Virus record (IMG/VR): IMGVR_UViG_3300021185_002334
Span: 1-25,863 of that record
Source of the DNA: a virus
Length of the DNA: 25,863 nucleotides
Reading direction: 5' to 3' (one strand)
A program made the translations under genes and the position numbers. Below the pieces are notes generated by a model. That model was given only the letters and a program-made list of their open reading frames with translations, made no database searches and had not been told where the DNA came from. Of this stretch, positions 23,756-24,142 are shown piece after piece (positions within the stretch are counted from its first letter, which is position 1; every line of letters starts with the position of its first letter).

Positions 23756-24142
23756 TGTTACAAAATAAATAAAATAATTTAGGTTCGTTAGGGAGGCACA
23801 GACAGGAGGACAATGTTACGTTTTGGGTGCTTTGTTACGCTTTCAGGGGGTTTTGTTACAATAGATGTAACAATGTAAATCCGCATGGTTACTGGGCTGT
23901 GTGACGTTTTTACCCCTATTGTTATAATGTTATGAAAAATAATATATATATATAGCCCCCTGCGATTTTTGTAACGGTGCAGAGAGGTTTGTTTTGTTAC
24001 GGGGTAAGAGAGAATCTTTCCCCCCCACATATCTTTTTTAACGTAACATTGTAACAATAGGAGGAACTCTACTATTATCATGGGCTTACGTTACTTAGTT
24101 AATGGTACATATTAGTTTTAAACTTAGAAAAACGTAACATTG
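23756..24142. other. Iteron-rich gene-free region, candidate origin
   Basis: Nine exact TGTTAC/GTAACA hexamers occur at 23756, 23814, 23833, 23854, 23867, 23995, 24043, 24051 and 24134, plus two CGTTAC/GTAACG variants at 23971 and 24089. CAATGTTACGTTTT (23811-23824) and its exact reverse complement (24129-24142) bracket about 300 bp. A TA-rich block (23940-23954) could melt easily. There is no believable gene on either strand. The layout fits a replication origin with an initiator-binding array; a regulatory hub is the alternative. Confidence 0.6.

Follow-up and report, generated by a model that had tools for sequence, protein, structure and literature searches.

Outside the classical models, few phages have a known replication origin. 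Among the closest described systems, the origins of phage-inducible chromosomal islands (PICIs) always have an AT-rich region with a set of iterons on either side (PMC6092414). Rep-type helicases of the Staphylococcus aureus pathogenicity islands (SaPIs) load themselves and recognize iteron origins through their C-terminal domain; Cch carries DUF927 and is a relative of SaPIbov1 Rep, which loads itself, and Cch2, a helicase of another family, binds direct repeats in vitro through its C terminus (PMC7581432). Here, a locus of comparable layout was analyzed in a 25,863-nucleotide stretch of viral DNA (positions 1 to 25,863 of IMG/VR record IMGVR_UViG_3300021185_002334; hereafter, the window). 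An initial annotation had proposed that positions 23756 to 24142 form a replication origin with TGTTAC iterons. Our analysis makes it very probable that this is the phage origin, with a phage-encoded PrimPol-DUF927 helicase as its most likely initiator. The result is a precisely placed candidate origin and an initiator candidate for an uncultured phage group that has the isolated relatives RHph_TM3_14A (Rhizobium) and Rollin (Pseudomonas).

The features of the region are as follows.

23756..24142, no strand, proposed replication origin, noncoding; conserved iteron cluster and stability minimum
23756..23761, plus strand, iteron TGTTAC nearest the promoter; lost in some relatives
23811..23824, plus strand, left arm of the 14-bp inverted repeat
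23814..23819, plus strand, iteron TGTTAC
23833..23838, plus strand, iteron TGTTAC
23854..23859, plus strand, iteron TGTTAC; orientation flipped in 5/7 genomes
23867..23872, minus strand, iteron TGTTAC
23920..23925, plus strand, core iteron TGTTAT, first of the left 8-bp-spaced pair
23928..23933, plus strand, core iteron TGTTAT, second of the left pair
~23935..23954, no strand, AT-rich block, proposed unwinding element; within the lowest-stability 50 bp
23970..23976, minus strand, degenerate site TGTAACG
23995..24000, plus strand, iteron TGTTAC
24043..24048, minus strand, core iteron (TGTTAC), right inverted pair
24051..24056, minus strand, core iteron (TGTTAC), right inverted pair
24103..24108, plus strand, degenerate site TGGTAC; TGTTAC in 5/7 aligned genomes
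24129..24142, minus strand, right arm of the 14-bp inverted repeat
24134..24139, minus strand, iteron TGTTAC

The nine exact copies of TGTTAC/GTAACA in the initial annotation were all recovered, as were its two TGTTAT variants, at which WTGTTAY is kept in all seven aligned genomes. Over the whole window the word occurs at near-chance frequency (21 copies versus 16.7 expected); 9 of these 21 copies fall within 387 noncoding bases, with 0.32 expected per 400 bp (binomial P ~1e-11 for one given 387-bp stretch). When the local sequence was shuffled with dinucleotides preserved, no six-letter word reached the observed TGTTAC count (0/200 trials). The 14-bp inverted repeat is exact, with 304 bp between its arms. 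The region also proved gene-free as described: its sole open reading frame (23788-24081, minus strand) was rejected as a gene because it is frame-broken in relatives and because substitutions there are spread over codon positions with no excess at third positions. The TTGTTAC/GTAACAA hairpin at 23853-23873 is present in the window but is not conserved. In 5/7 genomes its left arm reads TTGTAACAA, an exact or near-exact reverse complement of TTGTTACAA; the site is thus retained in flipped orientation while the stem is destroyed, and the hairpin was discarded as a functional element.

Next, conservation among close relatives was assessed. The homologous region is present in six independent viral contigs, giving an alignment of seven genomes with the window. 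Positions within TGTTAY sites were 92% invariant, compared to 37% for the positions between them, and when the site mask was slid circularly along the alignment, none of 331 shifts matched the observed conservation. Absence of the iterons from related phages had been named at the outset as grounds for abandoning the origin; they do occur there, with higher conservation than the sequence around them, and a replication origin is the best-supported reading of the region. The TA-rich block was likewise confirmed: it lies inside the least stable 50-bp stretch of the window (start 23905), and TATATATATATA within it is invariant in the seven genomes. In 6/8 genomes (the window, G001, G002, G005, RHph_TM3_14A, and Rollin), the 50-bp stability minimum of the contig lies in the cluster or within ~100 bp of it.

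The comparison was extended to distant contigs, which were located via a small Cys-rich gene beside the region (polymerase mostly 63 to 67% identical, initiator 45 to 53%), and to the two isolated phages, which were found through their polymerase and initiator. In most distant relatives the noncoding stretch beside the Cys-rich gene contains a significant cluster of short repeats, and the repeated word is lineage specific: TGTTAG (L025 and L044), WTGTTAT (L046, L051, L060, and L064), TTGTAAG (L043), or GTGGTAC with ATTATTA (L014 and L096). Rollin has eight copies of TATGCAA in a comparable region, and RHph_TM3_14A has a weaker AATTATG cluster, matched by 3/200 shuffles. In a blind 7-mer scan of all 400-bp windows, for which neither word nor place was given, the locus ranked first in 7/8 genomes (G001 was tied). 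KPP25 was also tried as a guide to the locus and set aside: a coding repeat dominates there, and no homologous cluster was identified.

Site spacing is retained where the intervening sequence has changed. A module consisting of a plus-strand site, a second plus-strand site at +21, and then a reversed site at 15 occurs in the window and in L031, L046, L048, L051, and L064. An 8-bp-spaced pair lies at or beside the stability minimum, with inverted sites ~105 to 117 bp further on; in the window these are 23920/23928 and 24043/24051, within an imperfect 38-nt inverted repeat. On each side of the AT block most sites share one orientation, opposite to that on the other side, and the spacing layout recurs in relatives at 45 to 50% initiator identity. 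Judged from these alignments, the iteron word has changed between sublineages and the geometry has stayed. If true, this would make the origins lineage-specific labels, and related origins with different words and a common geometry would offer a direct way to follow the joint change of initiator and site. Origins of uncultured relatives could also be predicted from this anatomy (site cluster, unwinding spot, and conserved position).

The alternative offered with the initial annotation was a large regulatory region, in which a phage regulator such as a helix-turn-helix (HTH) protein would use the repeats as operators to control the early promoter at 23750-23722. We consider this improbable. The near-consensus promoter does abut the leftmost iteron, the phage HTH protein is conserved in five relatives, and iteron binding by initiators often serves autoregulation as well, which counts in favor of this alternative. 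However, the sites extend over ~390 bp from the promoter outward, their conservation is highest at mid-region, and their layout is mirrored around the least stable DNA. The promoter-proximal iteron (23756) is lost in L084, L086, and L088; a purely regulatory region fits poorly because this site is the least conserved. Moreover, the HTH protein was not detected in RHph_TM3_14A and Rollin, whose regions are comparable.

The protein most likely to act at the proposed origin is encoded at the other end of the window, next to the HTH gene.

3255..6122, minus strand, proposed initiator: PrimPol, DUF927 (SaPIbov1 Rep/Cch-like) helicase, and C-terminal domain
6127..6360, minus strand, HTH protein, putative alternative or auxiliary iteron binder

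The initiator candidate is a 955-residue fused PrimPol-DUF927 helicase (Pfam DUF927, 6.9e-29) that in hmmsearch matches SaPIbov1 Rep (8tch) and Cch (5dgk) at 1.2e-14. In the predicted structure, residues 370 to 945, including the C-terminal region, match SaPIbov1 Rep (Z 24.2) and Cch (Z 26.3), and the N terminus matches PrimPol domains (6zp9, Z 17.1). A DUF927 protein is present in 8/8 genomes and is the sole initiator candidate common to all eight tested; no DnaB-type helicase was found in them (controls positive). The early suggestion that the primase-helicase could bind the iterons is strengthened, on the evidence of sequence and structure prediction, because the protein resembles known iteron-binding initiator helicases. 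The HTH protein may assist or may itself be the iteron binder. In RHph_TM3_14A, one gene (MN988472.1, 42239-45322; in L113) is annotated as a putative integrase, apparently in error: its product has DUF927 and can be aligned with the PrimPol-DUF927 helicase.

These results suggest the following mechanism: (i) an initiator encoded by the phage, most likely the PrimPol-DUF927 helicase, would recognize the short sites (consensus WTGTTAY) via its C-terminal domain; (ii) two inverted site groups, each containing a core pair at 8-bp spacing, would set the places of two helicase rings; (iii) the AT-rich block between the groups would melt; (iv) the helicase would load itself without a separate loader; (v) the fused PrimPol would supply primers at both forks, to be extended by the phage's own family A polymerase; (vi) the gp2.5-like protein would coat single strands; and (vii) the forks would leave in both directions.

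How this locus compares with known systems bears on the mechanism. Iteron plasmid and lambda origins have iterons beside an AT-rich unwinding element, as here; the lambda iterons lie within gene O, whereas the phage region is outside any gene. Its repeats are also shorter and occur in both orientations, and the DnaA boxes that mark a DnaA-dependent iteron origin were not found (no TTATNCACA with one mismatch or fewer in 23601-24400). The origin of phage P4 also has iterated sites. The P4 alpha protein (acting at ori and crr) likewise combines initiating helicase and primase in one protein (PMC7145576), but P4 is a satellite with other iterons, and the likeness is one of fused architecture. The Cch/Cch2 module of the staphylococcal cassette chromosome SCCmec shares with the phage protein the DUF927 helicase fold of Cch; it differs in belonging to a mobile chromosomal cassette, in having its putative ori immediately after the operon (PMC7581432), and in using CCPol-MP as primase where the phage has a fused PrimPol.

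The nearest likeness is to the PICI/SaPI origins (Pri-Rep-ori), which share both the two iteron sets around an AT-rich region and a DUF927/SaPIbov1 Rep-type initiator helicase encoded in the same element. In those islands ori lies just 3' of rep, whereas the phage origin is ~17.6 kb from the initiator gene; the phage initiator is fused to an N-terminal PrimPol, and its sites are 6 to 8 bp long and occur in both orientations. The phage lineage also has its own polymerase and its own large terminase (6/8 relatives by model; annotated in RHph_TM3_14A). A PICI is an integrated, helper-dependent satellite with an integrase, and searches of eight relatives for Phage_integrase, ParB_N, and ParA-type proteins gave no match (controls positive). 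The best explanation, as we read the comparison, is that the origin works like a PICI-type origin although the phage itself is no PICI. More broadly, we favor, with some reserve, the view that this family of ~55- to 64-kb phages, in which no integrase or partition genes were found, relies for replication on an initiator system of the PICI type: a single protein would unite PrimPol, a helicase that loads itself, and iteron recognition, and the origin would lie far from the gene for that protein, at a fixed genomic place. This would link PICI/SaPI replication modules to phages that appear virulent.

The terminase gene also bears on a second alternative, a packaging site (pac or cosB-like) with repeats bound by the small terminase subunit. 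This is very unlikely: the large terminase gene is only ~3 to 4 kb away in six relatives, but it sits across the divergent point from the iterons, which are in the replication arm, and packaging would need neither an unwinding element nor a mirrored site layout. A centromere-like partition site of a plasmid-like prophage is scarcely credible, for although clustered short sites adjoin the early operon, the partition and integrase searches above were negative.

Several observations weigh against the replication origin or its assignment to the PrimPol-DUF927 protein. Among distant relatives, L052 has no cluster and that of L091 is weak; the RHph_TM3_14A locus was not at the top of the blind scan; and in G003 and G004 the 50-bp stability minimum falls outside the locus. 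The initiator model has moderate confidence (predicted template modeling score, 0.44; predicted local distance difference test, 73), and the long Rep/Cch alignments have root mean square deviations of 18 to 19 Å, so that relative domain placement is unreliable. Initiator gene and origin are far apart in relatives, too, and the iterons could instead be bound by the conserved HTH protein encoded beside the initiator. Cumulative GC skew, proposed at the outset as a check, has minima ~1.5 to 3 kb from the iterons in near-complete relatives, at the switch in gene direction. Because the minimum follows this change, skew tracks the gene strand and is uninformative; it was set aside as evidence for the origin and counts neither for nor against it.

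The window is a 25.9-kb phage fragment in which all genes read leftwards except one at the left end (128-3079). The leftward genes encode the PrimPol-DUF927 helicase, the HTH protein, a gp2.5-like single-stranded DNA (ssDNA)-binding protein, an SNF2 helicase, the family A polymerase, a VWA/DUF2201 protein, and an AAA ATPase. The candidate origin is bounded by a terminator-like hairpin (24358-24339) and the promoter at 23750-23722, which is directed into an operon whose first gene encodes the small Cys-rich protein.

6366..7643, minus strand, gp2.5-like ssDNA-binding protein
15321..17159, minus strand, family A DNA polymerase
23424..23630, minus strand, small Cys-rich (zinc-ribbon-like) protein; syntenic origin neighbor in many relatives
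23722..23750, minus strand, sigma-70-like promoter into the replication operon; conserved in close relatives
24339..24358, minus strand, terminator-like hairpin at the region boundary; conserved in close relatives

The Cys-rich protein has two CxxC-type pairs, and in many relatives its gene comes first next to the origin. The RHph_TM3_14A gene EVB41_030 was considered as a homolog, without support. Rfam and tRNA searches gave no matches, nor did a nucleotide search against named phages. Genome contigs searched for host or prophage context yielded metagenome-assembled genome contigs only and no isolate prophage, and a literature search of partial coverage found no account of this origin or phage group.

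The two palindromes seen flanking the iterons in the initial annotation (its numbers 6 and 7) are present but are members of a separate, dispersed set of nine with the form GTTTAG-N6/7-CTAAAC (17529, 19243, 20752, 21903, 23062, 23661, 24145, 24308, and 25493). Most lie directly 5' of minus-strand gene starts, several without an upstream promoter. In relatives both arms have changed together, to GTTTAGG..CCTAAAC (L085 and L087) or GTTAGGT..ACCTAAC (L084 and L086), and the palindromes are therefore likely to represent a phage-wide operator or mRNA hairpin system. Two near-consensus sigma-70-like promoters on the minus strand, 25552-25580 (TTGACA-17-TATAAT) and 23722-23750 (TTGACA-17-TATACT), each have a palindrome within ~60 nt after them. 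Finally, positions 25600 to 25863 are C-rich and noncoding, contain an imperfect 25-nt direct repeat (25718 and 25807), and are partly conserved in relatives; this is probably a divergent control region towards the structural genes.
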